64,000 nucleotides of DNA from Hydractinia symbiolongicarpus. Its lineage: Eukaryota; Cnidaria; Hydrozoa; Anthoathecata; Hydractiniidae. The notes beneath the pieces were generated by a model, which was given only the letters and a program-made list of their open reading frames with translations, was not told the DNA's origin and ran no database searches. The stretch spans positions 11,098,001 through 11,162,000 of the forward strand of contig NC_079882.1 in NCBI RefSeq assembly GCF_029227915.1, read 5' to 3'. This document shows positions 9,884 to 54,343 of the stretch, piece by piece. Made by a program: the position numbers and the translations under genes. Each line of letters begins with the position of its first letter. Position 1 is the first letter of the stretch.

Positions 9884-9891
9884 GTGACTTT
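9884..9891. repeat. Left 8-bp target site duplication (GTGACTTT)
   Basis: GTGACTTT directly precedes the outer end of the left arm (GGTAAGTCGTCC). The identical octamer follows the outer end of the right arm at 32039-32046. Removing the element and one copy gives the continuous sequence CCCCGTGACTTTCCGTCCC. Confidence 0.9.
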
Positions 9892-12226
9892 GGTAAGTCG
9901 TCCACGTATTACTTCCTGAATATAAAGGAGATATAGTATTCAACATGTGTTAGACCTATGTACGTTCCCAAGCCTTGTGGAGATAATGATGTGCTATTCT
10001 CCATAAAGCACAAGTGTAGTAGCCTGTAGTAGAGCGTAGTAGAATGTATTTCTCTGTAGTAAAGCGTATTTCTCTGTAGTAGAGTGTAGTAGCCTGTAGT
10101 AGCTTGTAGTAGAGTGTAGTAGCGTGTAGTAGAGCGTAGTAGAATGTATTTCTCTGTAGTAAAGCGTATTTCTCTGTAGTAGAGTGTAGTAGCCTGTAGT
10201 AGCTTGTAGTAGAGTGTAGTAGCGTTTAGTAGAGCGTAGTAGAATGTATTTCTCTGTAGTAAAGCGTATTTTTCTGTAGTAGAGTGTAGTAGCGTGTAGT
10301 AGAGCGTAGTAGAATGTATTTCTCTGTAGTAAAGCGTATTTCTCTGTAGTAGAGTGTAGTAGCCTGTAGTAGCTTGTAGTAGAGTGTAGTAGCTTGTAGT
10401 AGAGTGTAGTAGAGCGTATTTCTCTGTAGTAGAGCGTATTTCTCTGTAGTAGAGTGTAGTAGCGTGTAGTAGAGCGTAGTAGCGTGTAGTAGAGCGTAGT
10501 AAAATGTATTTCTCTGTAGTAAAGCGTATTTCTCTGTAGTAGAGTGTAGTAGCATGTAGTAGCTTGTAGTAGAGTGTAGTAGCGTGTAGTAGAGCGTAGT
10601 AGAATGTATTTCTCTGTAGTAAAGCGTATTTCTCTGTAGTAGAGTGTAGTAGCGTGTAGTAGAGCGTAGTAGAATGTATTTCTCTGTAGTAAAGCGTATT
10701 TCTCTGTAGTAGAGTGTAGTAGCCTGTAGTAGCTTGTAGTAGAGTGTAGTAGCTTGTAGTAGAGTGTAGTAGAGCGTATTTCTCTGTAGTAGAGCGTATT
10801 TCTCTGTAGTAAAGCGAATTTCTCTGTAGTAGAGTGTAGTAGCGTGTAGTAGAGCGTAGTAGAGCGTATTTCTCTGTAGTAAAGCGTATTTCTCTGTAGT
10901 AGAGTGTAGTAGCCTGTAGTAGCCTGTAGTAGAGTGTAGTAGCGCGTAGTAGAGCGTAGTAGAATGTATTTCTCTGTAGTAAAGCGTATTTCTCTGTAGT
11001 AGAGTGTAGTAGCGTGTAGTAGAGCGTAGTAGCGTGTAGTAGAGCGTAGTAAAATTTATTTCTCTGTAGTAAAGCGTATTTCTCTGTAGTAGAGTGTAGT
11101 AGCCTGTAGTAGCTTGTAGTAGAGTGTAGTAGCATGTAGTAGAGCGTAGTAGAATGTATTTCTCTGTAGTAAAGCGTATTTCTCTGTAGTAGAGTGTAGT
11201 AGCATGTAGTAGCTTGTAGTAGAGTGTAGTAGCGTGTAGTAGAGCGTAGTAGAATGTATTTCTCTGTAGGAAAGCGTATTTCTCTGTAGTAGAGTGTAGT
11301 AGCCTGTAGTAGCCTGTAGTAGAGTGTAGTAGCGCGTAGTAGAGCGTAGTAGAATGTATTTCTCTGTAGTAAAGCGTATTTCTCTGTAGTAGAGTGTAGT
11401 AGCATGTAGTAGCTTGTAGTAGAGTGTAGTAGCGTGTAGTAGAGCGTAGTAGCCTGTAGTAGAGCGTAGTAGAATGTATTTCTCTGTAGTAAAGCGTATT
11501 TCTCTGTAGTAGAGTGTAGTAGCCTGTAGTAGAGTGTAGTAGCGTGTAGTAGAGCGTAGTAGAATGTATTTCTCTGTAGTAAAGCGTATTTCTCTGTAGT
11601 AGAGTGTAGTAGCGTGTAGTAGAGCGTATTAGCGTGTAGTAGAGCGTAGTAGAATGTATTTCTCTGTAGTAAAGCGTATTTCTCTGTAGTAGAGCGTACT
11701 AGCTTGTAGTAGAGTGTGGTAGCTTGTAGTAGAGTGTAGTAGCCTGTAGTAGAGCGTAGTAGAATGTATTTCTCTGTAGTAAAGCGTATTTCTCTGTAGT
11801 AGAGTGTAGTAGCCTGTAGTAGAGTGTAGTAGCGTGTAGTAGAGCGTAGTAGAATGTATTTCTCTGTAGTAAAGCGTATTTTTCTGTAGTAGAGTGTAGT
11901 AGCCTGTAGTAGAGTGTATTTCTCTGTAGTAAAGAGGCGTTCATAATGGTCTCGCACTATATACAAACGAAAAATTATCGTGACATCTTCGCACAAAGAG
12001 ATTCTTATCAGTACATCACTTGTAGTTGGTAGATAAGCAAGGGATGATGGCCGATTCGCCAGTGGTCATCATAATATCAGAGACAAAGAAACAAATTTAG
12101 CAGACACGCCTAAATATTCATTTTCAATTTCACATCTTGTGTTTTACTGCGCTTACCCAACGAGACATGATCAGTTTGTTTGAGTCTAACAGAATACATC
12201 ACAAGCAATGTATGTTCCAAATACCA
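9892..12226 (+). repeat. Left inverted arm of the giant element
   Basis: Outer tip 9892-10014, minisatellite 10015-11936, inner unique part 11937-about 12226. The outer tip, and the inner part as far as about 12120, match the right arm base for base wherever I compared them. From about 12120 to 12180 a few mismatches appear. From 12180 to 12226 identity drops to roughly 80% and then ends. The divergence is therefore graded from outside to inside. Confidence 0.85.
10015..11936 (+). repeat. 10-bp minisatellite, about 190 units, left arm
   Basis: The units are GTAGTAGNNN variants (GTAGTAGAGT, GTAGTAGCCT, GTAGTAGCTT, GTAGTAGCGT, GTAGTAGAGC, GTAGTAGAAT), mixed with GTATTTCTCT and GTAGTAAAGC. They keep one 10-base register from start to end with no visible slippage. 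Units are grouped into higher-order blocks of roughly 60-130 bp that recur. The complementary strand contains no stop codon in the common units, so it stays open for hundreds of codons. The frame at 11996-9909 is a consequence of this and is not called as a gene. Confidence 0.9.
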
Positions 12227-12244
12227 TTAGTAAAGGCGAGTGAT

Positions 12245-12630
12245 CAGTATTACGTAAGAGATACGGTTGTTTCCGTAAATTAGACCCTTGATAAAAATTT
12301 AGAAAAAAGCTCCTGTTTTAGAAGCAATCCATATATCTCAGATTCAGTTGTTTCGGTGGATTGGGCCATTGTTAAGCATTCAGGAAAAAGCTCCTATTTC
12401 TAGAAGCAATCCATATATCACAGATGCGGTTATTTCCGGTAAATTGAGCCATTGATAAACATTCAGGAAAAAGATCCTGTTTCTAGAAGCAATCCGTACA
12501 TAATAGAATTACTTGTTTTGGTGAGCTAGGCCATTGTAAAAAATTCAGGAAAATGGTCATGTTTCTAGAAGCAATCTATACATAACAGGTTCAGTTGTTT
12601 TGGTGAATTGGGCCTTTCATAACCTTTTAG
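12245..12630 (+). repeat. Degenerate tandem repeat, unit about 82 bp
   Basis: AGAAGCAATC recurs at 12320, 12402, 12485 and 12567, a spacing of 82-83 bp. Each is followed by diverged copies of a segment with GTTGTTTCGGTG and CATTCAGGAAAAAG. The array starts just inside the left arm, and no counterpart was seen inside the right arm. Confidence 0.75.
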
Positions 12631-12649
12631 ATAATACTTTTTGACATTC

Positions 12650-12870
12650 AATTTTGGCCGGAATATAAAATTTCAGAACAAAAGTTACCGAATTTGGCGC
12701 TCGTCTATGATAATATCAGTTAAACGCTCCATGTTTCTCTTGTTTCGTTCAATTTTGACAATATAAAACGAAATTTTAGACCAAAAATCACCGAAGTCGG
12801 CACTTGTCTATGCCATTATCAATTAAGCGCTCCATGTTTCTCTCGTTTCGCTTAATTTTGGCCGGAAAAT
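12650..12870 (+). repeat. Degenerate tandem repeat, unit about 102 bp
   Basis: AATTTTGG or AATTTTGA recurs at 12650, 12751 and 12854. Between copies are the related pieces AAACGCTCCATGTTTCTC and AAGCGCTCCATGTTTCTC. There are two full units and part of a third. Confidence 0.7.
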
Positions 12871-13754
12871 GAAATGTGTCTAAGGTATTGTCACATATAC
12901 GAACTCTACTTGTCTTGTTTCGATGAATTAAGACCTGAATACTTTTATATATGCCGATTATCTCTTGGTTGAAAGAAACCTTTTTTTGTTTCACAATATT
13001 AAAACTTGTTAACGTATACCGGAACAAAGTTTTCGGCAAATATGTATCACGCCGTCTTTGCTAAGGATTAATCTGTTATGCTTTCGAATATAGAAGAATC
13101 CGTTTTTTGTGAAACAATTGTTAATATATATTGAACGATTGTAGTTTATAGTTGTAGAGTCTTGATGAAATCTAGTGGTGTTTGTGTATTTCACAGACTA
13201 AAAGCTACTTTCTAAAAATATGCTCATGCACTACGAAAGTCAAAACAATTAGCATCCGTGGCATCACAGAATGTTTCACAAAAAGATTGCTACTTCTTTA
13301 TGAATTGCTTTTTGTTAATGTAGGAAGTTTTTTATATGATTACTTCAAAAATAATATGATCAAGCTTGTGGTCATCCTTTTTAATATATTACATAGGGAA
13401 TGATATTGAGACATTCACTTTCCGTTTGATAGCCCATTGTGATTGATTTCAATTTATTTCCACAAATGAGTATGTATAATACAGTGTCACGTATGAGGTG
13501 TGCTAGTTTTACGTATATTATACGTCTTGTATTATTCTAAGAAGCAATTAACTACTTGTTAAAAAGGGAAAAATATATATTCTACAAATAGTTGAAATAT
13601 AGTATAGAGCTATTAGTTTTTCTCTTCTTGATTAAAGTAGAATGAAAAGTCCTTGCAGGCTAAAAGATTTCGGAACAAATTCAATTTATTTCATTCCCTT
13701 TATAGTTCAGAAACATACTTTAATGACTTGACACAAGTTGATAATATAAATTGA

Positions 13755-14096
13755 CTAGTCGTTGATTAGTAGCCCGTCCTTTATATTTACCTGTCGCAGC
13801 AAAGTGGATAAAAATATATCGCATTTGATATTCGTGTTTCCGCAACATCATTTTCTAACTCAGCGGGGGGTCCGCGCAGAGACAGACAGACGACGGCTAT
13901 TATTATAGAGACTAGTCGTTAGCCCGTGGAAAAATCCACGGGGTCGTCCGTCCTTCAAATTAACCCGTTGCAACAAAGTGGACAGAAATATATCGCATTT
14001 GGTATTGATGCGCATTTTAAAAATTCGTGTTTCCGTTACGGGACACGGCTTTCGCGGACACACAGACACACAGACGACGGCTATTATTAAAGAGAT
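13755..14096 (+). repeat. Two tandem copies of a dispersed retroposon-like repeat
   Basis: Each copy runs from a GACTAGTCGTT start, through CAACAAAGTGGACAGAAATA-like sequence, to an end reading GACAGACGACGGCTATTATT. The first ends near 13912 and the second near 14096. The second contains a short hairpin (CCCGTGGAAAAATCCACGGG). The minus-strand frame at 13860-14177 is an artefact of this repeat. The 3' end resembles the short insertion at 44586-44634 in the sirtuin gene. Confidence 0.6.
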
Positions 14097-14270
14097 TACA
14101 AACAATAGAACATACTGTGTAAAATGAGTGAGAAGGATAAGAAGGAAAACGAAGGAGGAAAAAGCCCGTTTAAACAAGATTTTGGATACGATACGAAATC
14201 TTAAAAATTATGTAATCCCGGAAAAGAGCTATGGTAGTTCAAATAATAAATACAGACGATAACAGCTACA

Positions 14271-15175
14271 TTATTCCGGGTCACTGTCTGAGCCGGACAC
14301 GGAAACATGCCTCTCTTCAGGATTAACCTTTTCGCCATTGGTAAGCACTGAAATATAAAAAAATGTCATAGAAAAGCATTTGAGAAACCATATCTAATCC
14401 TAAGTTTTAAAACTGCAAGAGCTGTTGTTAAGACATCCCAATCAGAAGCACACAATAAAGAAGAATCCTGAACATTTGACAAAACCAAAAAAAAAAAAAA
14501 ATATAAATATAAACTAGCACAATTAGGCAAAAGAAGCATTCAGCATACCTCATTCGCATAAAAGTTGAAGCTATTGACATCTATCTCATTTTCCAATTAT
14601 ACTGTAAAAAAGCCAGTAGCTAGACATTTCTTTTTTGAGTATGCCGACTTCTTCTTCACATCTTTTCAACAACTCATTTTCGTTGTCGCCACTATTTTTT
14701 AAACCCTACAGTACCTCAACCCGAATGTTTTCACAATGAGTGTAAAATCATGATATATGAAGTGTCAAGAAATGTAACAACAATTCTACTTACCATCAAT
14801 CTCTGTATTTTCCATCCATGGGAAATCAAAATCACTGTCTTCGCCAGACTTCTCCTCAACACGAGGTACACCAATGTCCCCGCAATGGTGTTATAACATT
14901 TCATGAAGTCTTTATCAACGTCTCCACAGATTTACATACTATGTAATTCAATCCTCCTTTTATTATCTGCCTTCTTTGTTTCTTGTTTGTTCTTATATGC
15001 ATTGCTTCTGCCCATGAAATAAGGTGTCGTTGTCCTTTTCGCTTGCTGTTGTTATTTTCAAGTTTTTCACGGAGCAACTTTTCCATTTTGCTAGCAGGAT
15101 AATTCTTTGTTGAGATCCACTCTAGATCTTTTGCATGAAACAAGAAGATATATTCAGATGATAGAATATATCTTA
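14271..15175 (-). pseudogene. Broken coding exons with an acidic C terminus, inside the giant element
   Basis: On the minus strand the last exon is 14347-14271, ending SGSDSDPE and a stop. It splices in phase (acceptor TTTCAG, donor GTAAG at 14793) to a segment from about 14890 down to 14794 that reads HCGDIGVPRVEEK, then SGEDSDFDFPWMENTEID. Further upstream, 15175-14901 encodes a basic stretch (YPASKMEKLLREKLENNN, then HIRTNKKQRRQ) that ends at a stop codon in a different frame. At least one frameshift therefore separates them. It looks like the 3' part of a decayed gene. The protein is not recognised. It could be the C terminus of a transposon protein or captured host sequence. The SAP exon at 28716-28467 lies on the same strand upstream and could be its 5' end, which is unproven. 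Confidence 0.45.
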
Positions 15176-15699
15176 CCTACTTTAATCATAGAAACTTTGC
15201 AAGATTGAATTGAATTGAAGAACACTTTCGAAAAGTGAATTTAAATTTCATGAAATAGATTTTCGCCATGGAACCATTGTGTGATTGTTTTTTGAAGAGT
15301 ACATACACATTTTCAATGTGTTTATTGAAATTTCAATACGTTCTTGTTTTAATTATTCCTTTTGAAATTTACTATATTGATCAGGAAGGAACCATTTTTA
15401 GCTCGAAATATACTTGCTCTGCACTTCACTCACAAGTTACCTAGTGTACCTAGTGTAGATAAACAACCACCTCCAATTTACATTCGCTCAGCGGTCATTT
15501 TTTTAAATAATGGAACAATATTCAGCAACCTTTCCCAACAAACTATCTCATGCTGATTACGTAAGTCTCAAATGATTTTCCATTATAGAATACTTCATAG
15601 AATGTTATTAAACAATTGATATTTTATACTCTTAGCCTTTTACTTTGTGCAAATTTAGTACTATACTGTGAGTTCTTGTGTTATGGTAGTTATCCTTTT

Positions 15700-15823
15700 T
15701 AAACAATTTAGTTTTTTGCGGTTGTCTATACCATGGCAAACAACTCTGTTTGTGAGTGACCACGGTAAAATACACAGTATGGATTGGTGGCCCCCTAACT
15801 CACCGCTGGAGGCAAGAAAGAAG
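15700..15823 (+). pseudogene. Possible transposase-like exon remnant
   Basis: Plus-strand open segment with a possible acceptor (ACAATTTAG) and a good donor (AAG/GTAAGA). It reads VSDHGKIHSMDWWPPNSP. The DWPPNSP element is reminiscent of the motif before the last acidic residue of Tc1/mariner-type transposases (DWPPxSPDLNP), but the following residues do not match. It is short and unsupported by neighbouring exons. The overlapping minus-strand frame at 15661-15867 is considered its shadow. Confidence 0.2.
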
Positions 15824-16867
15824 GTAAGATAACTCTTGTACGCGCCTAACTGACTGGCCATCTCCAAAAGCCACCCGCACCTCTCCCCCTCCTAGCTAAT
15901 GACGGCAGTTTATTGTTTTCCACTTTCATATTAGAATCTTGATTACCTGTAAATAAACATTACCTACGTCCCCTAAACGATTATCGTGCAGAGAAACGCA
16001 CAGTTCTGTGAAAAAACGAGTCTGTCTAGCCACAAATTTAGCCAGGAGACCCAGCGTTTTCCCTTCAAACCGCCTTTACGATCAATTTTTTCTTTCTCTA
16101 TCAAAGAAAGCTTAAATAACTAGGCTAGTCATAAAGTATGATATGAAATGTTATGGAAGGTTGAGGGGTATCCTGGCTACAGACTCAGCCTAGTGTAAGT
16201 GGCGGCTTCTCAAGTTTGTAGATACCTGATGATGACGTTAATAAATAAATCTTAGTGTTATATTTCCTTGTTTGAAAGAGGGAAGAGGATGGGGAACAAG
16301 GATGCAGTAGTCCGTAAACCGCGGAGCGCCCTGCAGTGCAGCGGATAGACGCAGCAGCGATGCGCTCCGTCCTGACATAGTCACCAGGTCTCTATATTAT
16401 ATGGATTCTCGGATTTCCTGAAAAAATCATCAATATATCCATTTTTCATACATATGGTCAATATGTCAATATTTAGAAGCCCGTTCATTGCAGTGCATAT
16501 GGACATAATATCGATATATTGTCCGTTTTTTATAGTGAGTATGTTGTAAAAACAAAGCCCTTAGAAGTCAAAAATGTCATAAGGAGAACATTTTAAACCT
16601 TGTCAAAACCCAACAACTTTACTATTCAAATCTGGCTGTTCAAATCTTCGTTGTCGAACCATTAAAAAGCAATGTAAAGAGCCTTAACTTTTAATTAATC
16701 ACGGTAGAAAAATTCGAAGAGCTTAAATTTCTGATTTGTTTCCATTTTAAAAAAGCAGCAAAAGATAAATAAGAATCTCCTCCATATCGTTACTTACCGG
16801 TACTGGCTTGGATAGAACTTGATGATGTGGTTACAAAAGTGTATTACTGAATGAATTACAAATTTTG
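15824..16867. other. Cargo stretch without identifiable features
   Basis: Mostly AT-rich. There is a GC-richer pocket at about 16315-16375 with many CpG. A minus-strand donor-like site (CCG/GTAAGT near 16799) follows a short open segment (VTTSSSSIQAST), but no exon chain could be built. Confidence 0.3.
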
Positions 16868-17000
16868 AATTGATTTGGATTATTGTTTGTTGCAGTATGA
16901 AACTAATTACTGCACACCCTGTTGTTCTTTAATTTGAACTACCACCTTTTAAAGATGGATTGGATTCGAACCAATAACTTTCATAGTCTTGCAACAATAG
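16868..17000 (+). repeat. Repeat R1 copy 1 (pair with 22507-22637)
   Basis: About 130 bp at roughly 90% identity to 22507-22637, both running from ATTGATTTG through TTGTTTGTTGCAGTATGAAA and GGATTGGATTCGAACCAATA. On the minus strand the last piece forms a tRNA T-arm-like hairpin (ATTGGTTCGAATCCAAT). This arm precedes, rather than follows, an A-box-like segment (TAGTTCAAATGG in the other copy), so it is not a tRNA gene. Confidence 0.6.
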
Positions 17001-17789
17001 ACTTAATTTACTTGGAATTCACGAAATTCAATGTCACTTCAAATAAAAACACATCATAAAGCTTGTTGTTACAAAATTAATTGTGAGTTAAAAACCGTAG
17101 CTAAGTATTACAGGTTTGTTGAAACTGTTGTCTCCTTGAATTAACAAACTTTAGACTTTCGCTAAATTTTTTTTTAAAGTAAAGGGTGTAGCCACCTATC
17201 TGAAAACTTTGTTGCAGCCAACTGGTTTTCGGCTATTTTCGCTTTTTAGCCAGATTTTTTTAAAAATTCACGTTAATTTAATGTCCCTTATTAAAGTGTA
17301 ACGTAAATATCCAGGACGTTTAAAAAGCTACTAGTTGTATTTTTCTGACATCGCAACAGCGATTATAGCCAGGGACGAGGTTGTATTATTATAACCTCGC
17401 TACGGACGACGTTGTACTTATATAACATAACACAAGTTCAGCTGGGAAGAGGCCAGGGAAGGGCTGCAGAAAGTTAGTATGTATCACCATGCTCGGCAGC
17501 ATGACTGCATGTATTAATGTAACTGTGTCTCTTTTATTACTTGCAGAGTAATTAATTACCCAATGGGTTATGGCATATGCTCGTCATTCATAAAACAACG
17601 CATCCATCCATACCGTACCGTACGCATTTAATTTTTGCAACGTGAAATTCATCGTTAAACAAATTTTAAAATTCTGGTTAAATACTAAGAATTAAAACGC
17701 AAAGACCTACTAAATATCTCGATTAACATTAAGGTCTTTTTTTATCACATGAAATGTGTACAACTGTTCTAAATTTTAACGAGTTTGTT
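17001..17789. other. Cargo stretch, nothing identified
   Basis: AT-rich with a few short inverted repeats (CGAGGTTGTATTATTATAACCTCG-like at about 17376-17400). No coding exon or known repeat was recognised. Confidence 0.3.
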
Positions 17790-19160
17790 CGGAAACAAAA
17801 AAGCAAGGGGAACTTTATTCTAGTCAGTACACAAGCAAGCGAATTGAATTAAGTAATTGGGGAAGATGTCCTATTAGGGTAAATATTTAGACAATTAGCC
17901 TGGCACATCCACACCTACACATACAATACTGAAAACAAAATTTAGGAAACCATTCCCGCAATATATACGATATTGAATGTTTTGTGAAGCTAAATAAGGC
18001 AAATCTTATTCTGATTAAAAAACAATTAGACAAGTAGCGAAACCTATCAATTCATCATTAAAAAAGTATTTTGGGGAATAATCTTACGCAATATAAAAAA
18101 AAGAACAGAATAAAAAACGGTCCAACGATCACTTTTTTCTACTCAAAAATCGAAAGGGCGAGTAGCACGCGCGTGCGTATATCATTGCATGTGCATACAT
18201 CAAAGATTTTGTTAAAGCTCTCTCGCACCTTGTAGGAAGAAGCTCGCACCAAATGAAATGTTCAATGTTCTAGCAAGCGAATAAAAAAGCCTTTCTTCTA
18301 CTTTGTAAACAGGCAAGGGAGCAAAAGATCCTGACATACAACCTAAAAGATATCTGATAAAAACGCTATCGCGAAAGGTGAAGTATTAAATCTCTTGGTC
18401 GGCCAATTCGAGAAAAGACTTTATTCCACTCAGAAAACAGGCACGAGAGTGTTAGACCTATCCATACATCATTTGAAATGAGAATTTTGGAAGTTGCCTT
18501 TCACGCTGAATATAATGTTAGATATCCATCCATACACTACTAAAAAGGAGATTTAGCTAGTAAGCGAATCAAAAGCGAAACTTTATTCTACACCACAAAG
18601 AAGCAATCAAGAAGAAGACCCTACCAGATATGTCTAAAAACACTTCATTCCACTCCGATAACAATCACGCGCGATAATATCAGATGTCCTGGCATGTAAA
18701 TTCACGGGAAGACTTTATTGCACTCAGTAAGAAGCAGAAACAAGGGAGACCGATCCATACCACCATACAATATTAAAAGGATATTTTGCAAAATACCTTC
18801 AGGCGGAAAAACATACAGCATGTCCTAGCATACCTGTGTATAAAAAATTAGTTCTACTCAGTAAACAACCAATCAAATGAGAGATCCATCCATACCTTAT
18901 AAAAATAGAGATTTTATCAATATACATGCATCATTTGAAAAACGCATTTTTTGATCTTACCCTTCGCGCGAATTAAAATATTTAGCACGCCAACCTTAGA
19001 TGTTCTAACAGCTCAATTCACGGAATACTTTATTCGACGCAGTAAAAATGAAGGAATGTGGGACACCTATCCATACATCTATCAAAAGAGAGATATTGAA
19101 ACAAGCAGTAGAGTTGAATAACTATCCATACACAAATAAAAACGATATTTCAGAAAAATA
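17790..19160 (+). repeat. Field of degenerate dispersed repeats
   Basis: A motif like GACTTTATTCCACTCAGTAAA followed by variants of ACAAGCAAG and CTATCCATACAT recurs with substitutions near 17810, 18418, 18580, 18645, 18710, 18850 and 19025. Spacing is irregular, about 65-200 bp except for a wider gap after the first copy. No reading frame spans the region. It appears to be an old, decayed tandem array, possibly a transposon subterminal region. Confidence 0.5.
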
Positions 19161-19791
19161 GTTGTGTGTATCATATGTTTTTTTTGCTGTTCATAGGAAG
19201 CAGTTTAATGTGATTTTGAACTTTCAATATTTTTAAAACTAAAACCTTATGACAAAAATGATAAAAATGTATATGGACTTTTTTTGTTCGTAGCTGTTAG
19301 AAAAACTATTGGAGGGACATAGTTATTAATATAGTCTAACTAGCTAAATAAAATTGAGTTATGACTGTTATGGTTGCTACGAAGTTAAGTTATATTGTGC
19401 TGTCCTAGGCCCGTTCTTAAGGCTCTCTAGCCATTGAACGCTACGACTTTCTCATAATAACCGGTTGAAAATAGCTATTAGGTAATAATAGTATGAATAG
19501 AATTTGATTTAGCTAATATTGGGTATATTTTGACTCCTAAAAAGAAATAGTACTCTAGCATTTTTTTTTTTGCAAAACAGTAAAATTTGTTGAGTTATTT
19601 CTAAAAGGTTTTAGTAATTCTAATAGACTAAGGCAGTTTACAAGATAGTTAGCGTATTGCTCTGAATAGACCCGTCATCATGCTCCATCCATACTACACG
19701 AAGGTAGCATAGAAGCACACAGTATGTTACAAAAAAATTATGGTCCTTTTTTGAACATTATATTTAATTAAAACGTATATACAGTTGACTC
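19161..19791. other. Cargo stretch, nothing identified
   Basis: AT-rich sequence without recognisable exons or repeats. Confidence 0.3.
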
Positions 19792-21885: not shown

Positions 21886-22176
21886 CATTTCTTTTATACT
21901 ACAAAGTGTCTATGTTATACAAAGAACAATTTTAGTCATGTATATACAATATATAAGCATATAAAAGCTCTTGCCACATACGACAAACAATAAGAAACAA
22001 ACAGACATTAGGAGGCCTGGAACCTAGTTTATGAAACAAGAAAACCAACCAGCTCTGCATGCACGGTATAAGGAATGACAAAGTAGTACTTGTCCTTAAT
22101 TCAGCCAACACAAACGCACACAAAAGCTTTTGTAAAAAAAAAGCCACTTAAAAAAACTAAGTCTCACATTATAGAG

Positions 22177-22381
22177 ACAATCATGTTCATAATAGTTTTG
22201 GAAAAACCACTTTCCCCCTCCCCCCACTCTTTAGTGTTGGTTGGAGGTCTTTTCCAGAGTCGCCGGCAGTATTTTGGGGCACAAATCAACACAAAATCAA
22301 CACAGACTGTAGGAGGAGAGGGGGGAAACTCTGAAAAAAGCCTCAAAAGCCGTTTTTCCAATAATTTATGAACATGATTGT
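22177..22381 (+). mobile_element. MITE family M1, copy 2
   Basis: 205 bp, same ends as copy 1 and nearly the same interior, with a few small indels (for example near position 22260 and in the G run at 22310-22325). A clean target duplication could not be defined. Confidence 0.75.
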
Positions 22382-22506
22382 AGTTATAGCTCAGCAAAAC
22401 CTGAATAACTGAACGTATATCCCGAGTAAATTAAAAAATTTCCTTCTTTCATTTCTTTTCTTATAGTTACCTCTTTTTTTGAAACATTTGTTTGTAAAAT
22501 TTTTTG

Positions 22507-22637
22507 AATTGATTTGCATTATTGTTTGTTGCAGTATGAAACTAATTACACACCATGTTGTTCTTCCATTTGAACTACCACCTTTTAAAGATGGATTGGA
22601 TTCGAACCAATAACTTTCATGGTTTTACAACAATGGA
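22507..22637 (+). repeat. Repeat R1 copy 2
   Basis: Second copy of the repeat at 16868-17000, same orientation. It begins ATTGATTTGCATTATTG and ends near GGTTTTACAACAATGG. Confidence 0.6.
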
Positions 22638-23255
22638 AATATTTTTTAAATAACATAACACAGAAATACAAAAGGTCACACATAGTATCAGTATTTACAC
22701 AAAACTAATTTTGTTACCAGAAAACTTCCTTATCCCACTCTTCCAAGAATCATTTTCATCAAAGTTTTTTTTTGGTTTTACCTGCATTAGAAATACAAAA
22801 AAAAACAAAAAAAACAGTAAAGAAGCAAAAATTACCACCAAATTGATTAACATAAAAAGCAAAGTATAAATTAGAACAGAAAAATCCCGAGAAGAGTTGT
22901 GAACAAAAACATCGCGCATCATCATTAAATTAAAACAACAGAAATTTATCTAGTTTTTAAAATCATTACACTGTAAAACTAACTCCACCACTCCACGATT
23001 GTTATAAATTAAAACAGGGTGTAAAAGTTTCAGAAATTGCTTATTCAATTTTTCAGCATAAGTCGCAATAAAGCCTTGAGGTAGGAAATTAGCTGACTGA
23101 AGAGAGGGATATACTTCAACTTAGGGGTATTTCAACTGGCAATATTACCTGTACATATAACATGTCCCTCCTGAAAGTCAATATACTGAATAAAAACTTG
23201 ACTACTTATTTGAATAATTATGGTACCAAGTAGCCTAGTTAGTTGTCTAGCCTAG
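22638..23255. other. Cargo stretch, nothing identified
   Basis: AT-rich. The minus-strand frame at 22695-22925 is rich in phenylalanine and leucine from poly(A/T) runs and has no recognisable features. Confidence 0.3.
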
Positions 23256-23259
23256 TTAA

Positions 23260-24732
23260 AGGGGAACTCCAGTAAAAATCACTTTTCTTTTTTTTGTTTG
23301 TTTTATACGTACTCAGAAAAGCATAAGAAATAAAAAAAAACTTACTTTACTTGTTTTTCTTATTTAAAATTGTTGTACAAGCCTTCGCATATTCAATTTT
23401 TTTCTCATAAAAAACAGACAGGTGCGATTTCATTTCGGACTGGACCCGATTATAAATAATGACATCACATCGTGCAGAAAGTTTAAGCAAGCGCATGTTA
23501 AGACCTATAAATACAGCTTACATTAAATCGCTTTTTGTATGTAATTTACGTTTAAATCTTTAAAAAATGGTTAGTTGCTCTGTGTTTCTATGTACCGATT
23601 GATCAGAGAAGTGTAAAGAAGTAAGTTTTCACAGAATCCCGTCTGTGAAAAAGAAAGAACTCAAAAACGACTAAACAAAATACGTCGTGCAGGTGATCTA
23701 CCAAGCGATCAAAGTTTTTATATTTGGTTGGTGCACTTCACAGATAGTTCTTTTAAAAGATATCTGCAGGAAATAAACTTCCATATTAAGATACTCTGCA
23801 ACTTTGTAAAAATGCTATTTTAGCTAGTGAACGCGATTAAAGTTTCTCATTTCTTCTCATCTCAATATTTGTACTTATATCCACAGAACTGAACCAAATA
23901 ACGTTTTGTACATTTTTATATTAAATAAGAGAACATTATACGAATTTCCAATACAAACACCGACAAAAAAGCTTTCTAGTTACACATGTATCTTTTGTAG
24001 CGCTCAAGTTTCTATTCTTTGTTTTTCAAAAAAGAAGCTTTTTTGATGGAAGGACATGCCAAGTATTTTCAGGGGGTAAATGTACCCATTTTCTTCAATC
24101 TTTGTAACTTTATAACGGCTGCATGTAATGCTGATAATGCAGTTTCTAAAACAGCTTTGTCAAAACAACCACTTGTAAGTCAGTAGCTTCTCCAACACAT
24201 TTATGACCTACCATAATCATAAGATTGATTTTTATTTATACAATAATAATACCCCGTTTTACCAACTTATCTAGACCCGAACATTATTTGATTTTATATC
24301 ACGCATTTCAATGGTCCTCCATCACGGAGAAAATTCAACGTTACATAAAATTTGTTTACATTTGTGCGCAAAAAAAGCGCGTGCAGAGGAAAAATATTGC
24401 TGAACTGTGAAAAAAATAAATTGGCTTGTAAAGTATGAAAGATTTTTTAATGAAGCAAATGATAAAGTTTTTTGACGAAAAGAATGTTAAAAAAAGCGAT
24501 TAAGTATATTTATTTCTTAAAAAAAAAAATATTTTGCTAAGAACGTTGCTTGAGCCAGTAAAAGACACCTCATCACTTTGCATCATTATTAATTTCTCCC
24601 TTGTGAGACAGAAGAGGTTCGAAGTCGTGTGGCTGTAGCTTTGTAAAGTCTTTTTCATGAAGAGAATTATCCGATTCTATGTTTTATATAACATTTTTTT
24701 TTTAAAGATTTTTTTTTCACTGGAGTGCTCCT
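23260..24732 (+). mobile_element. Kolobok/T2-like DNA transposon with TTAA ends
   Basis: TTAA (23256-23259) is followed by AGGGGAACTCCAGTAAAAAT. At the other end AGTGCTCCT is followed by TTAA (24733-24736), so that read inward both ends are AGG(G/A)(G/-)xACTCCAGT. TTAA duplications with TTAAAGGRR ends are a hallmark of Kolobok/T2-type elements, and members of that superfamily carry THAP domains. A broken THAP domain lies inside at 23567-23775. The length is 1,473 bp, too short for an intact autonomous copy. Confidence 0.7.
23567..23775 (+). pseudogene. Degenerate THAP zinc-finger domain
   Basis: The plus-strand frame starts ATG at 23567 and reads MVSCSVFLCTD, stop, SEKCKEVSFHRIPSVKKK. After a second stop or frameshift it continues RRAGDLPSDQSFYI, then VHFTDSSFKRYL. 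The spacing (C-x4-C, then F/H-R-I-P, then C-x2-H with HF and SFKR) is that of a THAP domain, the DNA-binding C2CH finger of P-element and Kolobok-type proteins. The third cysteine position reads W, and at least two stops interrupt the frame, so it is not functional. Confidence 0.65.
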
Positions 24733-24736
24733 TTAA

Positions 24737-25740
24737 CTAAGTTTTCTTTGAGATATTAAAATTGAGTTTTTTATATAATAATTTTTCAGTGCAACCCGAA
24801 TTAAAATCAACCAATATGCATAAAGCCAGCATGGCCACATCTAACATTAAAGAAGAAAAGATTTCCCAATAATGATCACGTGAGCAAAGAACAATAGAAG
24901 TTCTTGCCTTAAAGTATTGTCCAAATTTCTTTCATACAAGACAAAAAATATCTTCGGATCAATTGTATTTCAAGTGGCAAAAAGTATTCCTACTACTAAA
25001 GTGAACACACAGCACTATTTGTCTTTCTTTAAAAAATAAGCTTACTCAAAATAATTAACAAAATTCAATCTAGCTCAGGCTACAGAAATATAATTATATG
25101 CTTAACTCAGATATCTTTGAATAGATGACGTACACTGTCTCTTTTTTTCAAAAATAAATATAAATGTGCCAGCTCTTTCAGAACATGTATTCAGTATGGA
25201 ATTAGCTGCATTTCATGTTGGTGGAAATTATATTTAAAAAAATATTCTCTTTATTTAAAAAATCAACCCTGGCCTACTTTTCCACCACATCAGATTTTAA
25301 AAACTAACGTTTTCCTCAAAAAATTATTTTTTAATCTTTTTATAAAATTATTATTCAGCAGATAATTGAAAAAAACAACAACACCTATTTAAACTTTTTA
25401 ATAGGAAATTTCCACAGTTAATGTGTACCATTAATAGCATGGCTTTCCAATGAATGGCTGTAATAAGTATTATGACAATCAACAGCGTAAGTTATTGTTG
25501 CCAGATATTGTATACTGGAAAGAATCAATTTTTATATGTAAATTATACCTATTATCATCATTTTCCTCAAAAAGTTATTTTTTGGTCTTATAACAGCAGA
25601 TCACTGAGAATTTACGGAACTAAAAATCTTGTGGTAACATTTTCAAAATTAAAAATCTTGATTTTGTAAACATTAAATGCACAAATCCTAACAAATTATA
25701 AATCTTTTTAAAATAAATTGGAATGATCATCTGTTTTAAA
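24737..25740. other. Cargo stretch, nothing identified
   Basis: AT-rich. Two short segments share ATTTTCCTCAAAAA(A/G)TTATTTTT (about 25311-25332 and 25560-25581), suggesting a small internal duplication. No exon was recognised. Confidence 0.3.
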
Positions 25741-25746
25741 ACATCA

Positions 25747-26010
25747 ATGCACATGCATCTTGCCCACGAAAAAAAGAATTGTATGGAGCAAAAGATTGAA
25801 ATGGAATTAGAGTTTAAAAAAGAATGTCTTTTAGTAAGGAACACAATCGTTACGAGAAAATATAACCTGCTGTGAAAAGATAATCTGCGGCCATGTTGAG
25901 GGGCAGATTGACACGGCAAACGAAATAGTAGATGATTGCAGTGAATACAACATCGTACGACATAGCCCTCCCTTTGTCATGTATTCCTGCAGTATATATT
26001 TGCTATAGGT
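25747..26010 (+). pseudogene. Coding-like remnant in two frames, unrecognised
   Basis: An ATG at 25747 opens a lysine/glutamate-rich stretch (HEKKNCMEQKIEMELEFKKE, then VTRKYNLL) that stops near 25873. The overlapping next frame continues CEKIICGHVEGQIDTANEI, then VDDCSEYNIVRHSPPFVMYS, and stops near 26008. Such a neat hand-over suggests one former reading frame with a single frameshift. I do not recognise the protein. Confidence 0.3.
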
Positions 26011-26550
26011 TACTTCTACCGACAAAACAATGTGTTAATATATTTAACACTTTTAAACCATTCAATAAGTGAATACTAAAAATTAAAAAATTGGATGCGC
26101 AAATTCTCCAATATAGATTCATGCGTGTTGTTTTTTTCATGGAATTCCTGGTAAAATGTGCATATGTTTTACAGTGATAGTCTTGATCTCTAGTTCTGAT
26201 TCACTGGTGGGACTGTCAAGATTGAGGCCCTGGACGCCTCTTCAATTTTAATCTTTAATAGATCCCAGTATTGTCATACCATCAGTGAGTCAAACCTTTT
26301 GAGCCATCGAATTATTTTTATAGATATTTTCTGATACCTCAATATTTCAGCTTTCCTTTCAGGCTGCATCCTTTTCATTTCTGAAAAGACAACCGATAGC
26401 CAATGATATATTGTAGTAATGTTGTGTATGGTAATAATTGAGATTTACTTTTAAAATTTCAGAATATAGGTCTATACTTCAAGTTTAAGTATTTTCCAGG
26501 TTATTTGAAACCCTGGTTTGTGTAAAGGAGGAAATCTCGAGGTTACTTGT

Positions 26551-26720
26551 GGGGCCGTAGATTAGTGGTTATAGCTCTCGTACTCTGACCGGGGCTCAAT
26601 TCCTCTTGACGGAGATTCAACATGGGTGAGTGAATCTGAATGTTACCATAGCCCCGGTTTAATTGGTTACCAGAAGTTCAGAATAAAAGAAGTGAAGTTT
26701 ATTCAAAAGAAATACCACAG
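26551..26720 (+). mobile_element. tRNA-derived SINE
   Basis: An A-box-like TAGATTAGTGGTTATAGC begins at 26558, and a B-box-like GGCTCAATTCC lies near 26593, about the spacing found in tRNA genes. A non-tRNA body follows (CCATAGCCCCGGTTTAATTG, then AGAAGTTCAGAATAAAAGAA). It lacks the stems of a functional tRNA. Internal Pol III promoter boxes followed by a unique body are the standard SINE layout. The 3' end is approximate. Confidence 0.6.
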
Positions 26721-26952
26721 CCCATTTATCTTTTATCATTCAGCACAGTGGGTGTTCTTTTTAACTTACTAATTACAGGCTTTTTATTAGTAGCTAGCTA
26801 AACATTGGCTTTATAGTAAAAATAAATATACAGCTACTTTACCACCGAAAGCCTTAATACAAGCTGGAATTCAGAATTGACAGTTCTTTATGCATTTCAA
26901 GCCTTCAAAGAGTGGAAACACTTTGAACGATAGCTGGCATCCAAATTACATA

Positions 26953-27300
26953 AGGCGGACGTCACAAATATCTGGTGTTAGAGTCATTTGAGCACCAAAA
27001 ATAAAGTCGGTTGGTAGATCGGCGAATGATAACTCAAAAATATCCAACCATCCAGCCATTAACGCGCGCCATTAAATTGCCGATGTTTAATGATAACTTT
27101 GGCACCTCCGGCAGTTTCCGCGTGAACACTTTTCACATTTTAAAGCGAAGCACAACAATCGCTGCAATTGCTGTGGAGAGACAACAAGCGTATAATATTG
27201 TTTGTCATTTTAGTTTTTCCGACTCAGTATATCAAAAATTTTGATCAAAAATTAGGGTCAGTCGGGTGACTCTAACACCAAATATTTGTGACGTCCGCCT
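26953..27300 (+). mobile_element. 348-bp MITE with 34-bp inverted ends
   Basis: The left end is AGGCGGACGTCACAAATATC and continues with GGTGTTAGAGTCA. The right end is its complement with one mismatch. The interior has no transposase. The 77-codon open frame at 27011-27244 lies within it and is not considered a gene. The flanks (ATA and AAT) do not give a clear target duplication. Confidence 0.75.
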
Positions 27301-27317
27301 AATCATTAATAAATAAA

Positions 27318-27446
27318 TACTGACCGGTTTTGATAACGTACTGTGAAATACAAAGCCTGGCTCAAAAGTACAGACCGAGCTTGTGAGGTCTGTGCCCCTG
27401 ACAAATGGCTTTGTATTTTACAGGGCAGAATCAAAACCGGTCAGTA
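27318..27446 (+). mobile_element. Small foldback MITE
   Basis: 129 bp that folds on itself: TACTGACCGGTTTTGAT at the left and ATCAAAACCGGTCAGTA at the right. There is a second paired block (GTGAAATACAAAGCC with GGCTTTGTATTTTAC). Confidence 0.75.
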
Positions 27447-27522
27447 GCCATTTTATAGCTGAAATCTATTCTCATCTTTAAAACAACAATCAAATTTTGC
27501 ACATGATTAGATGGAATACCAA

Positions 27523-28329
27523 TACATGGAATCACTCCTGATATTTACTTGCCCACGCATCAAGTGATTATGTAATGCCCGATGCGCACGCAGAAATGGA
27601 GGTAAATATGTAAACAAACTAATCTGAAACAGTCAGGGATAACCGTAAATTAGGCTATCACGCCAAATTAGGCTAGTAGCTTAGTTAGGAGATTTTTCAT
27701 AGACTATTTAGGCGAGTATCTCCTATTTAGGCGATTTGCTATCTTCTTTGTTAAATATAACGGAAACGACATATAGTTGCGCCATGTTTTTTTGGCTATC
27801 CAGTGGCCTGTCAAGTCGTCTTTGGTCAAGTAAAATTTCATGTAATTTGCTTCGCGGAACTAAAAATTATATGTCAAAAGTCTTTGGATCGGCTAATTAG
27901 ACGAGAAATAGTCTATTTAGGCTATGCGCCACCATGTTGAAAATATGCGCGCGGGAAATTTAGCCTTTGTTCAGAAGCAACCGTGGCCGTAAAAAAAAGA
28001 AGCCGTATCACAGCGCATGCGTTCTAAATCAAAACAAACTAAACGCTATTTCTTCTGACAGCGCAAATAATAAAGAAAAATATATTTGGACCATCAAAAA
28101 GGGGTTCTATAGAATGTTTTTAGCTAATAAAATCATTGCGACTATGTAACAGAACAGCGATAGGCAGCAAAAACCATGTTGATAGCCTAATTAGGAGAGA
28201 TAAATCGCCTAAATAGGCTATCGTAGACTAATTAGACTATCATAGCCTAATTTGCGGTTATCCCTGACTGAGAAAAGTTACCTCAATTTCTGCGCGCGCA
28301 GAAAAAATACGGCACTATAATTGAGTGTA
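27523..28329 (+). mobile_element. DNA transposon family M2, copy A, with an element nested inside
   Basis: The outer ends are related to copy B at 34253-35235: left TACATGGAATCACTCCTGAT, right ACTATAATTGAGTGTA. Near its centre is an inverted pair (GCAGAAATGGAGGTAA and TTACCTCAATTTCTGC). The 641-bp insertion at 27630-28270 is absent from copy B at the equivalent position, so copy B acts as an empty site. Confidence 0.6.
27630..28270 (+). mobile_element. Nested element with CAGTCAGGGATAACCG ends and TTAGGC motifs
   Basis: 641 bp. The inverted ends are 29 bp (CAGTCAGGGATAACCGTAAA and the matching right end, one mismatch). Many copies of ATTTAGGC, TTAGGCTA or their complements lie just inside both ends (27650-27735, 27890-27930 and 28185-28250), as expected of subterminal protein-binding repeats in hAT-like transposons. 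No clear target duplication and no transposase. Confidence 0.65.
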
Positions 28330-28466
28330 TGGCAAATTTTAATCCACAACTACTTAAATTAGAATGTACAGTTCAAATTTTAAAGGGAGAAGAAAACGTT
28401 CGAAATTACGTTAAAAACGAACCAACCAAAAAGGGTATTTGTTTCAGTTATTTTAAACCGACTTAC

Positions 28467-28716
28467 CCTTCCAAACATTCCAAGTCAGCTCTTCGTCTGA
28501 ATCAAATGTCTTTTCGCATGTTACGCAGAAGCAAATTGTATGTTCAGCAGTGGCTTTTACTTCTACTTTTTGCTCATGAGCAATCAGAGCTCTTACAGCC
28601 AACGTTCCATGTGATCCAGATGTTGGAAGCCCACGCTGGGAAAGGAAAAATTGAAGTTCAGCCATAGAAAGTTCTAAAAAATTCTGCAAACATTTAATAT
28701 CTTTAACCGAAGCCAT
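28467..28716 (-). CDS. First exon of a SAP-domain protein
   Basis: The minus-strand ATG at 28716 opens MASVKDIKCLQNFLELSMAE. Residues from about 14 to 45 fit a SAP motif: LSMAELQFFLSQRGLPTSG is followed by a GTLAVRALIAHEQ helix, matching the helix-extended loop-helix pattern (L-x2-L...GL-x2-G-x3-L-x2-R). The segment ends at a strong donor (G/GTAAGT at 28466). SAP domains bind AT-rich DNA and also occur at the N terminus of transposon-encoded proteins in invertebrates. The exon lies about 1.1 kb inside the right arm, pointing inward. No downstream exon was securely joined; the decayed exons at 15175-14271 are on the same strand and are candidates. The overlapping plus-strand frame at 28329-28667 is its shadow. 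Confidence 0.55.
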
Positions 28717-28919
28717 CAAGCTCACTTGATTTAACTTTTTAGGTTTTTTAATTAATTAAAAGTAAAATATATAAGAATTGATTAAAAATTAACTTGTATA
28801 AACAGAAAAACCACGCGACCACATAAACTTCGCATCCCTGCTAGCAGCGGTGTTGTATTTTGTCATAGTGATTACCCAGAATGCTTTGCGCAACCGTGAA
28901 AGATCTACCGTTAATGATC

Positions 28920-29040
28920 GATTAGGCCCCTGGGGGCTTATTTGTCAAAATGGGTTTTGGGGGACGGGGCTTATTTGGGAGGGGCGTGGCGGGGGGTTAA
29001 ATGGGAGGGGACTTATAAAATTATGCAAAAGTCTTAGTGT
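28920..29040 (+). repeat. G-rich repeat (GGGGCTTATTTGGGAGGGG type)
   Basis: Repeats of GGGGCTTATTTG and GGGAGGGG. The complement of a similar sequence occurs at 47945-48045 in the sirtuin intron (CCCCTCCCTT, then AATAAGCTCCCC). It is a dispersed simple or mobile repeat. Confidence 0.5.
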
Positions 29041-29111
29041 GCTAAAAAATAAAAACAACAATTTTAATAAACACAACATATATTTCTAAAAGTATAATAA
29101 AAACAAACACT

Positions 29112-29290
29112 AATCGATCTCAATATCACTATTGCCTTCTTCGTCCTCGTCTACGATCGTCTCTAAGGGAGCCGCATCAATCATTTCCTCCGGCATCTGG
29201 GATAAATGGGTTGTCTTCCGTCTCGTTTACCAGTTGTATTTGTTCATTGAGCATTGAGGGTATTTCGAACTCGTTGGGTGAGCGCAGAAG
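29112..29290 (-). pseudogene. Acidic C-terminal coding remnant beside the right arm
   Basis: Minus strand: one frame reads FEIPSMLNEQIQLVNETED, then NPFIPDAGGND and a stop. The next frame continues MPEEMIDAAPLETIVDEDEE, then GNSDIEID and a stop at 29112. The compatible composition suggests one protein tail split by a frameshift. It abuts the partial third copy of the arm's inner sequence at 29268-29455. The protein is not recognised; a transposon protein is plausible from position. Confidence 0.35.
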
Positions 29291-29455
29291 AACACAAGAT
29301 GTGAAATTGAAAAGGAATATTTAGACGAGTCTCCTAAATTTGCTTCTTTGTATGTGATATTATGATGAACACTGGCAAATCAACGTTTATGCCTTGTTTA
29401 TCTGCCAACTACACTTGATTTACTGAGAAAAAGCTCTTTGTAGGATGTAAACATA
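29268..29455 (+). repeat. Diverged third copy of the inner arm sequence
   Basis: About 190 bp at roughly 75-80% identity to 29868-30058. Examples are CGTTGGGTGAGCGCAG against CGTTGGGTAAGCGCAG, and GATATTATGATGAACACTGG against GATATTATGATGACCACTGG. It has the same orientation as the right arm and lies 0.6 kb inside it, without any minisatellite. Confidence 0.7.
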
Positions 29456-29805
29456 TCCAAATTTAGTTTTGCTTCACCCAGTGAACGGCTATCATGAATT
29501 GCGTTTGAACATATAAACTACATTGAAAAGGCTTCATTTATTTTTTCCATGAAGACTTTTGTAGTGTTTTCGCAAATACTAAACACGGTAGAGCAATTTT
29601 AAAGTAACAATTTCTGCACATAAAAATTATGAAGTATGGATGACATTACACACTGGTTGCTCACGTTCCAGCTCAAAGATAGAAATTTCGACTATTCTTT
29701 CATAAAACCGCAACTAGACATTCAACAATCAAGAGCAAAATTAATATCCCCAAAGTAACTTGTGAGGAATTGACGATTGATGTATGAATACAAAGCATAA
29801 TAGTG

Positions 29806-32038
29806 AACACTCATGGTATTTAGGACATACATTGCTTGCAATGTATTCTCTAAGGCTCAAACAAACGGATCATGTCTCGTTGGGTAAGCGCAGTAAAACA
29901 CAGGATGTGAAATTGAAAATGAATATTTAGGCGTGTCTGCTAAATTTGTTTCTTTGTCTCTGATATTATGATGACCACTGGCGAATCGGCCATCATCCCT
30001 TGCTTATCTACCAACTACAAGTGATGTACTGATAAGAATCTCTTTGTGCGAAGATGTCACGATAATTTTTCGTTTGTATATAGTGCGAGACCATTATGAA
30101 CGCCTCTTTACTACAGAGAAATACACTCTACTACAGGCTACTACACTCTACTACAGAGAAATGCGCTTTACTACAGAGAAATACATTCTACTACGCTCTA
30201 CTACACGCTACTACACTCTACTACAGAGAAATACGCTTTACTACAGAGAAATACATTCTACTACGCTCTACTACACGCTACTACACTCTACTACAAGCTA
30301 CTACAGGCTACTACACTCTACTACAGAGAAATACGCTTTACTACAGAGAAATACATTCTACTACGCTCTACTACACGCTACTACGCTCTACTACAGAGAA
30401 ATTCGCTTTACTACAGAGAAATACGCTCTACTACGCTCTACTACATGCTACTACGCTCTACTACAGAGAAATACGCTTTACTACAGAGAAATACATTCTA
30501 CTACGCTCTACTACACGCTACTACACTCTACTACAAGCTACTACAGGCTACTACACTCTACTACAGAGAAATACGCTTTACTACAGAGAAATACATTCTA
30601 CTACGCTCTACTACACGCTACTACGCTCTACTACACGCTACTACACTCTACTACAGAGAAATACGCTTTACTACAGAGAAATACATTCTACTACGCTCTA
30701 CTACACGCTACTACACTCTACTACAAGCTACTACAGGCTACTACACTCTACTACAGAGAAATACGCTTTACTACAGAGAAATACATTCTACTACGCTCTA
30801 CTACACGCTACTACGCTCTACTACACGCTACTACACTCTACTACAGAGAAATACGCTTTACTACAGAGAAATACATTCTACTACGCTCTACTACGCGCTA
30901 CTACACTCTACTACAGGCTACTACAGGCTACTACACTCTACTACAGAGAAATTCGCTTTACTACAGAGAAATACATTCTACTACGCTCTACTACACGCTA
31001 CTACACTCTACTACAAGCTACTACACGCTACTACACTCTACTACAGGCTACTACACTCTACTACAGAGAAATACGCTTTACTACAGAGAAATACATTCTA
31101 CTACGCTCTACTACACGCTACTACACTCTACTACACGCTACTACACTCTACTACAGAGAAATACGCTTTACTACAGAGAAATACATTCTACTACGCTCTA
31201 CTACGCGCTACTACACTCTACTACAGGCTACTACAGGCTACTACACTCTACTACAGAGAAATACGCTTTACTACAGAGAAATACGCTCTACTACGCTCTA
31301 CTACATGCTACTACACTCTACTACAGAGACATTCGCTTTACTACAGAGAAATACGCTCTACTACAGAGAAATACGCTCTACTACACTCTACTACAAGCTA
31401 CTACACTCTACTACAAGCTACTACAGGCTACTACACTCTACTACAGAGAAATGCGCTTTACTACAGAGAAATACATTCTACTACGCTCTACTACACGCTA
31501 CTACACTCTACTACAGAGAAATACGCTTTACTACAGAGAAATACATTCTACTACGCTCTACTACACGCTACTACACTCTACTACAAGCTACTACAGGCTA
31601 CTACACTCTACTACAGAGAAATACGCTTTACTACAGAGAAATACATTCTACTACGCTCTACTACACGCTACTACGCTCTACTACAGAGAAATTCGCTTTA
31701 CTACAGAGAAATACGCTCTACTACGCTCTACTACATGCTACTACGCTCTACTACAGAGAAATACGCTTTACTACAGAGAAATACATTCTACTACGCTCTA
31801 CTACACGCTACTACACTCTACTACAAGCTACTACAGGCTACTACACTCTACTACAGAGAAATACGCTTTACTACAGAGAAATACATTCTACTACGCTCTA
31901 CTACAGGCTACTACACTTGTGCTTTATGGAGAATAGCACATCATTATCTCCACAAGGCTTGGGAACGTACATAGGTCTAACACATGTTGAATACTATATC
32001 TCCTTTATATTCAGGAAGTAATACGTGGACGACTTACC
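29806..32038 (-). repeat. Right inverted arm of the giant element
   Basis: Inverted counterpart of 9892-12226. The inner unique part is about 29806-30106, the minisatellite 30107-31916 and the outer tip 31917-32038. The arm is about 100 bp shorter than the left one because of the minisatellite length. Confidence 0.85.
30107..31916 (-). repeat. 10-bp minisatellite, about 180 units, right arm
   Basis: Complement of the left array (units CTACTACACT, CTACTACAGG, CTACTACGCT and CAGAGAAATAC-type in 10-bp register). The plus strand is open in all three frames for 500-640 codons, encoding monotonous LLHSTTEKYALLQRNTFYY-like peptides. This follows from the unit lacking stop codons on this strand. Confidence 0.9.
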
Positions 32039-32046
32039 GTGACTTT
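32039..32046. repeat. Right 8-bp target site duplication (GTGACTTT)
   Basis: Directly follows the outer end of the right arm (GACTTACC) and is identical to 9884-9891. Confidence 0.9.

Positions 32047-54303: not shown

Positions 54304-54343
<40 letters not shown>

Follow-up and report, generated by a model that had tools for sequence, protein, structure and literature searches.

We analysed a 64,000-nucleotide stretch of the Hydractinia symbiolongicarpus genome (NC_079882.1, positions 11,098,001–11,162,000, contig C8 in our numbering; hereafter the window, whose own positions are used for all coordinates given without a contig), in which a single insertion of 22,147 bp begins with a left tip (GGTAAGTCGTCCACG) at 9892, finishes with a mirror-image right tip at 32038, and carries a perfect 8-bp duplication (GTGACTTT) directly outside both tips. 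Its inverted arms are 2.2–2.3 kb long: in a blastn comparison of the window with itself, 9892–12231 pairs with 32038–29809 at 88.65% identity over 2370 columns. Each arm comprises a 121-bp tip domain, then an array of 10-bp units spanning about 1.8–1.9 kb and, innermost, a domain of about 300 bp (the inner domain). The outermost 121 bp of the left and right ends are the same, with no differences, and the inner domains, when the left one of one copy is set against the right one of another, are 92.7–96.8% alike. Coordinates and blastn alignment thus confirm the original prediction for this locus, made from its letters alone, of arms longer than 2 kb, mainly of a 10-bp repeat, ending in mirror-image tips within a perfect 8-bp duplication around 22,147 bp. 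The features of the element are as follows.

9884–9891, + strand: target site duplication, left (GTGACTTT)
9892–10012, + strand: left tip domain, 121 bp, GGTAAGTCGTCCACG..., same as the right one
10013–11918, + strand: left minisatellite array, 10-bp units in a longer-period order
11932–12231, + strand: left inner domain of the inverted repeat (from the blastn self-comparison and comparison of copies)
11950–30094, + strand: interior common to the family, 0.9–1.5% substitutions against six other copies; best Pfam E-value 0.29
21371–22381, + strand: two direct repeats of about 205 bp (21371–21577 and 22177–22381); the intervening 599 bp (21578–22176) are absent in three of six other copies
27634–28270, + strand: 637 bp with inverted ends (CAGTCAGGGATAACCG), absent in three of six other copies; probable nested element
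28456–28716, − strand: SAP-like exon frame (recognized by eye), first Met codon at 28716
29809–30105, − strand: right inner domain of the inverted repeat
30122–31917, − strand: right minisatellite array
31918–32038, − strand: right tip domain
32039–32046, + strand: target site duplication, right (GTGACTTT)

The predicted empty site, with a single copy of the 8 bp, reads CCCCGTGACTTTCCGTCCC.

We interpret this element, with a probability of about 0.8, as a full-size member of family 1, a group of giant DNA transposons of the foldback type, about 23 kb long, in H. symbiolongicarpus. In the 480.9-Mb assembly of this species (76 contigs), the 21-bp family-1 tip occurs 151 times at up to two mismatches (78 forward, 73 reverse; this count takes in the tips of family-1 copies carried inside a second family, family 2, described below), while a reversed-pattern control occurs nowhere. 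The original prediction had staked itself on such a genome search for further tips, and the multi-copy family far above typical foldback size that it envisaged is borne out by these numbers and by the duplications. Tips were paired by hand from those listed (100 of 151 for family 1, 100 of 164 for family 2), and all pair counts are therefore lower bounds. Family 1 forms at least 31 plus–minus pairs among the tips listed, 14 of them full-size (20.7–30.3 kb apart, median 22.9 kb) and at least 17 shorter (0.4–8.6 kb). At 19 of these pairs the duplications were compared: 15 are perfect 8-bp duplications, all different from one another, one is of 9 bp, and three are imperfect (C10:25803239, 6 bp; C6:32624607, 6 bp; C2:11892430, AAGATATATT vs AAGATATT). 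One further candidate pair, C2:23738441/23818938 (80 kb), had no duplication and was dropped as false before the 19 were counted; C3:25491210/25634530 (143 kb), a 79.1-kb family-2 pair and C4:18405264–18439945 stand outside the duplication counts.

The interior of family 1 is fixed. Six more full-size copies, three of them oppositely oriented, have 16.9–17.7 kb of the window's 18.1-kb interior, with 0.9–1.5% substitutions against the window base by base and 0.7–1.7% between any two, and a 1.5-kb mid-interior probe matches all 14 full-size pairs (in our DNA searches for copies, the best 40 of 155–207 candidates were scored). What varies between copies are three indels, each absent in three of the six, of 181 bp (20790–20970), 599 bp (21578–22176, between the direct repeats) and 637 bp (27634–28270, with inverted ends), together with the arms, in which tip plus array measures 1.2–3.0 kb in the five that have both edges readable. 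The original prediction of an insertion behaving as one foldback-like unit is therefore supported, but its likening of the element to a foldback-flanked composite with different cargo in each copy (as in the Ising type) has to be rejected, because the interior recurs in all six other copies compared base by base and in all 14 full-size pairs checked with the probe. Its further view of the cargo as nested transposons and gene fragments is partly right, given indels that look like nested insertions, such as the 637 bp with inverted ends, and one SAP-like exon. Six short derivatives were read: four consist of arms only, one retains 1.9 kb of interior, and one joins the arms to about 3.5 kb of unrelated sequence, within which a long interspersed nuclear element (LINE) endonuclease-like frame was recognized by eye and is taken to belong to a nested element (copy L050). 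A small autonomous copy was considered among these six and rejected, as none has a transposase frame among its listed frames, which were not scanned with Pfam. Family 1 thus directly displays near-identical tips, 8-bp duplications, a fixed interior, both orientations, variable arms and arm-only derivatives. Its copies insert as units with 8-bp duplications, have spread recently, change the length of their arms, lose internal sequence and nest.

The second family was indicated by a group of near-equal scores in the search with the family-1 probe. In one copy that was read (C5:10536500–10562500) and five that were sampled, flanking sequence on both sides of the family-1 element is shared as well: about 190 bp to the left of its tip, and 3.2 kb that span the right break and continue past it, are 99.7–100% identical. 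Between two C5 copies this identity stops 10–20 kb out on each side, and on the left it ends less than 1 kb away from the family-2 tip. The family-2 unit there, C5:10527886–10575015, spans 47.1 kb, has mirror-image arms of tandem repeats of about 88 bp, and ends in tips (GGSAACGACTTCATTTAGCACCGGGCTAAGTGG) flanked by a perfect 8-bp duplication (GAATCTTC); for comparison of the ends, sequences such as GGTAAGTCGTCC or GGSAACGACTTC mark these elements. With up to three mismatches, the family-2 tip pattern occurs 164 times genome-wide (control 0) and yields at least 38 pairs among the tips listed, including 17 of 43.7–79.1 kb (median 47.1 kb), every one of which contains the family-1 interior. Perfect and mutually different 8-bp duplications flank all 11 family-2 copies tested (43.7–55.1 kb; one duplication, CTTTTTTT, is a simple run), and 21 of 22 family-2 ends start GGG or GGC, the remaining one GAC. 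The family-1 probe matched none of 12 family-2 pairs of 10–35 kb, an absence that is not firm because the best 40 of 207 candidates were scored and because one family-1 tip, C5:23542773, sits within a 27.8-kb family-2 pair.

The family-1 copy carried in the C5 unit keeps its left tip, and its right arm stops early, at the same break in the five sampled units. As the best explanation, we propose that a family-1 copy inserted into family 2 at some time, that the right arm of this copy is now broken off, and that family 2 has since spread with it as a unit. Some family-2 units have in addition a LINE insertion that is absent in others. A LINE reverse transcriptase frame also lies in the window itself, at 54300–55319 (+), and its DNA is 94% identical to that of the LINE present in those family-2 units. 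No convincing Pfam domain was found in family 2 in the C5-unit pieces L084 1–4800, L055 3911–7000, L053 1–3309 (six frames) or the 1.9-kb centre of a 10.3-kb copy, the best E-values being 0.043 (a dynamin GED domain, under its cut-off), 0.17 and 0.24.

Likewise, translation of the family-1 interior in six frames revealed no Pfam domain (best E 0.29), neither a MULE domain (that of Mutator-like elements) nor the polymerase, integrase and capsid domains of Polinton/Maverick elements, whose absence speaks against placing the family among the latter. Outside the arrays, the longest stop-to-stop frame is 131 codons in the window copy and up to 168 in other copies. Silent changes are not generally in excess in the reading frames when copies are compared with one another, a weak comparison because neutral decay after insertion looks identical, and they are not in excess either over the 6.7 kb aligned to a diverged interior relict at C11:27674500–27693400 (blastn segments 76–97% identical). 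The SAP-like exon frame (28456–28716, −) has accumulated 14 replacement changes between copies, two of these being stops, and no silent ones, and only pieces of the exon are present in the C11 relict. Its relatives are two short ENA proteins, 60–63% identical, with no match in longer proteins at an E-value of 0.01; we presume it to be akin to SAP-SWIM-YqaJ proteins. Given that neither a transposase domain nor general coding constraint was found in the interior, we infer from this absence that the family-1 copies are non-autonomous.

Several observations on the window stand apart from these questions. The tip at 9892 reads G|GTAAGT, which is splice-donor-like, and the arrays contain 40 and 41 occurrences of the splice-acceptor-like TTTCTCTGTAG; both may be due to chance. 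The ratio of observed to expected CpG, in 2-kb bins, is 0.65–1.17 in the element, 0.36–0.68 in its left flank and 0.34–1.03 in its right flank. Rfam gave no match on the window at the gathering threshold. Right of the element lie palindromes at 38571–38709 (68 bp at 100%, 78 columns at 87%), a 74-bp tandem repeat of 4.8 copies (39794–40145), and an open frame at 41847–42326 (−) that by eye resembles the C-terminal part of sirtuin 1, with no Pfam match at 0.001.

Structurally, both families are foldback elements, a known kind: they have long inverted arms mainly of variable-number tandem repeats, target duplications that are short and uniform in length (8 bp in 15 of 19 family-1 and 11 of 11 family-2 pairs), and dispersed copies including arm-only derivatives. 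Drosophila FB elements have long inverted tandem-repeat arms and a 9-bp duplication. Sea-urchin TU elements are similar in having an outer tandem-repeat arm domain, an inner arm domain and 8-bp duplications, and differ in size and interior. The elements are different from this known kind in their size (family 1, 20.7–30.3 kb; tested family-2 copies, 43.7–55.1 kb), in their fixed interiors, and in having no detectable genes in the parts read.

Published systems share single aspects of this structure. Muta1 and other Mutator-like foldback elements of Aedes aegypti have 8–9 bp duplications and non-autonomous derivatives with variable ends, and ten of 14 families there have long ends with 9–15 bp tandem repeats; Muta1 itself, in contrast, is 3.2 kb long, has 145-bp ends and encodes a transposase (PMC5225508), whereas the full-size Hydractinia pairs are 21–55 kb, with arms of about 1–3 kb, nearly all duplications of 8 bp, and a transposase not found. 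Similarly, the Mutator/foldback element Tm1 of root-knot nematodes has composite unequal ends with a variable 13–15 bp repeat, 8–10 bp duplications and derivatives resembling miniature inverted-repeat transposable elements, but the element measured is 1,080 bp and its commonest duplication is 9 bp (PMC3169594). Mutator elements across eukaryotes have long inverted ends and 8–11 bp duplications, although with ends of 14–500 bp in the elements analysed there (PMC6446971) as against more than 1 kb in Hydractinia. The FB-flanked Ising transposable element is alike in that very large DNA has moved between foldback elements, but it consists of host DNA bracketed by two FB elements (PMC6431247), whereas in Hydractinia one fixed interior has been multiplied. 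Of the same size class are Polinton/Maverick elements, Teratorn and the 16–20 kb CACTA elements of Chondrus, which have several genes of their own (PMC6431247; Teratorn reaches 180 kb, PMC10175614), whereas no such domain was detected in the parts of the Hydractinia elements that were read. We found no report of giant foldback elements in cnidarians, Hydractinia included, in the open-licence literature, which is a weak negative, and the word foldback is absent from the genome paper PMC11067881.

Which enzyme moves these elements bears directly on their affiliation. It is possible, and we offer it as a tentative assignment, that the enzyme belongs to the Mutator (Mutator-like element, MULE) superfamily and that the elements are giant relatives of Muta1 and of Tm1-type Mutator-foldback elements, since Muta1-type elements and Tm1 combine 8–10 bp duplications, ends of 9–15 bp tandem repeats and non-autonomous derivatives varying in arms and cargo (PMC5225508; PMC3169594). 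The architecture favours such a relative, and the near-strict 8-bp length here is somewhat against it, Muta1 in yeast having given 21 duplications of 8 bp and 39 of 9 bp (PMC5225508); duplications in the range of about 8–11 bp, which the Hydractinia elements have, are not MULE-specific. In the host genome the MULE domain is matched 49 times, in several cases within an open frame of 457–661 codons, and intact MULE copies stand, for example, at C3:19873188 and C8:7683980. None of the 49 lies inside the drawn pairs (31 of family 1 and 38 of family 2, among the tips listed), an absence that is weak because 0.15 would be expected by chance. An enzyme of the Merlin/IS1595 superfamily is unlikely. 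Merlin elements have 8–9 bp duplications and ends starting GG, which counts in favour, and the host genome has 27 Merlin matches, seven of them equal-scoring in open 349-codon frames, with intact copies at C7:8636189 and C13:7144159, for example; none of the 27, however, lies inside a drawn pair (0.08 expected), and kilobase tandem-repeat arms are not known as a Merlin feature. Finally, an enzyme from the KDZ (Zisupton-like) superfamily, with a rare long copy being autonomous, is improbable, even though KDZ elements are large and have 8-bp duplications and one KDZ match, in a 563-codon open frame (C4:18432193–18432600), does lie within a 34.7-kb family-2 pair, C4:18405264–18439945. Of the 82 KDZ matches in the genome, which include intact copies at C8:10880630 and C5:19037773, this one lies inside a drawn pair, with 0.25 expected by chance and a probability of about 0.22 for at least one; other KDZ matches in open frames of 561–563 codons are outside the drawn pairs, so that the C4 match may be a nested element. 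Another KDZ match lies about 37 kb from a family-2 pair.

A separate question is how family 1 arose. It may originally have been a composite, with a host segment caught between two foldback elements and the resulting unit multiplied afterwards, although we consider this doubtful. The interior resembles ordinary non-coding DNA with a SAP-like exon, and there are six diverged interior matches (among the best 40 of 207 candidates), of which the C11 relict, the one examined, has no arms by blastn; such a diverged copy might just as well be an ancient element with decayed arms, and no donor locus was identified among the best 40 of 207 candidates scored. The diverged C11 relict implies that the lineage predates the present burst. 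That the arms or the duplications are instead artefacts of assembly is highly improbable: long tandem-repeat arms are hard to assemble, and array lengths in single copies could be wrong in the assembly, but the duplications agree on both sides at 15 of 19 and 11 of 11 places, which makes misassembly unlikely, and the published chromosome-level assembly of the species, likely the one used here, was built from HiFi reads (483 Mb, 15 chromosomes; PMC10411563).

For giant foldback-type transposons of this kind, it is plausible that a putative DDE-type transposase, supplied in trans, would recognize the tips and move gene-free copies by cut-and-paste. The arm repeat units would probably act as multiple putative binding sites that help the distant ends to pair, the arrays may lengthen or shorten through slippage or unequal exchange, and copy number could rise through repair from the sister or homologue following excision. 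Because duplication length and arm design agree between the two families, we assume that one type of putative transposase acts on both.

Several points weigh against reading the elements as a gene-free transposon family. An autonomous partner was not found, transposition itself was not observed, and three of 19 family-1 pairs have imperfect duplications. In a few short frames of the interior, replacement changes are few relative to silent ones, each of these frames having three to eight changes in all (the lowest ratio being that of 24207–24407, with 1 vs 4), and one NCBI gene model falls within one copy, the counterpart of the window's SAP-like frame in a C5 copy being isoform X2 of LOC130644435, so that a product is possible. 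About 10.5 kb of the 47.1-kb family-2 copy studied lies outside the portion read, and a gene may lie there. In a review, natural DNA transposition is described as inefficient above about 6 kb of cargo, although the same passage gives engineered cargoes of 100–200 kb (PMC6431247).

With these points in mind, we suggest, still tentatively and at somewhat less than even odds, that Hydractinia harbours a class of giant, gene-free cut-and-paste elements of about 23 and 47 kb in which kilobase arms of tandem repeats, acting as putative transposase-binding sites, lift the usual size limit. Early Pack-MULEs, by comparison, were of at most 7 kb according to the review (PMC6431247). If true, DNA transposons that are not autonomous can increase in size and engulf each other while reaching dozens of copies all the same, and many such units would be found among the unclassified repeats of the host, which serves as a laboratory model; these repeats make up 48% of the genome in a published repeat annotation (PMC10411563). 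The elements described here, which occur naturally at about 23 and 47 kb and have clean 8-bp duplications, have risen in copy number recently and apparently carry no genes themselves, and they provide a case of one giant element absorbed and spread by another. If confirmed, they would make it testable whether arrays of end repeats overcome the natural size limit of transposition, and could supply parts for the transfer of large DNA.

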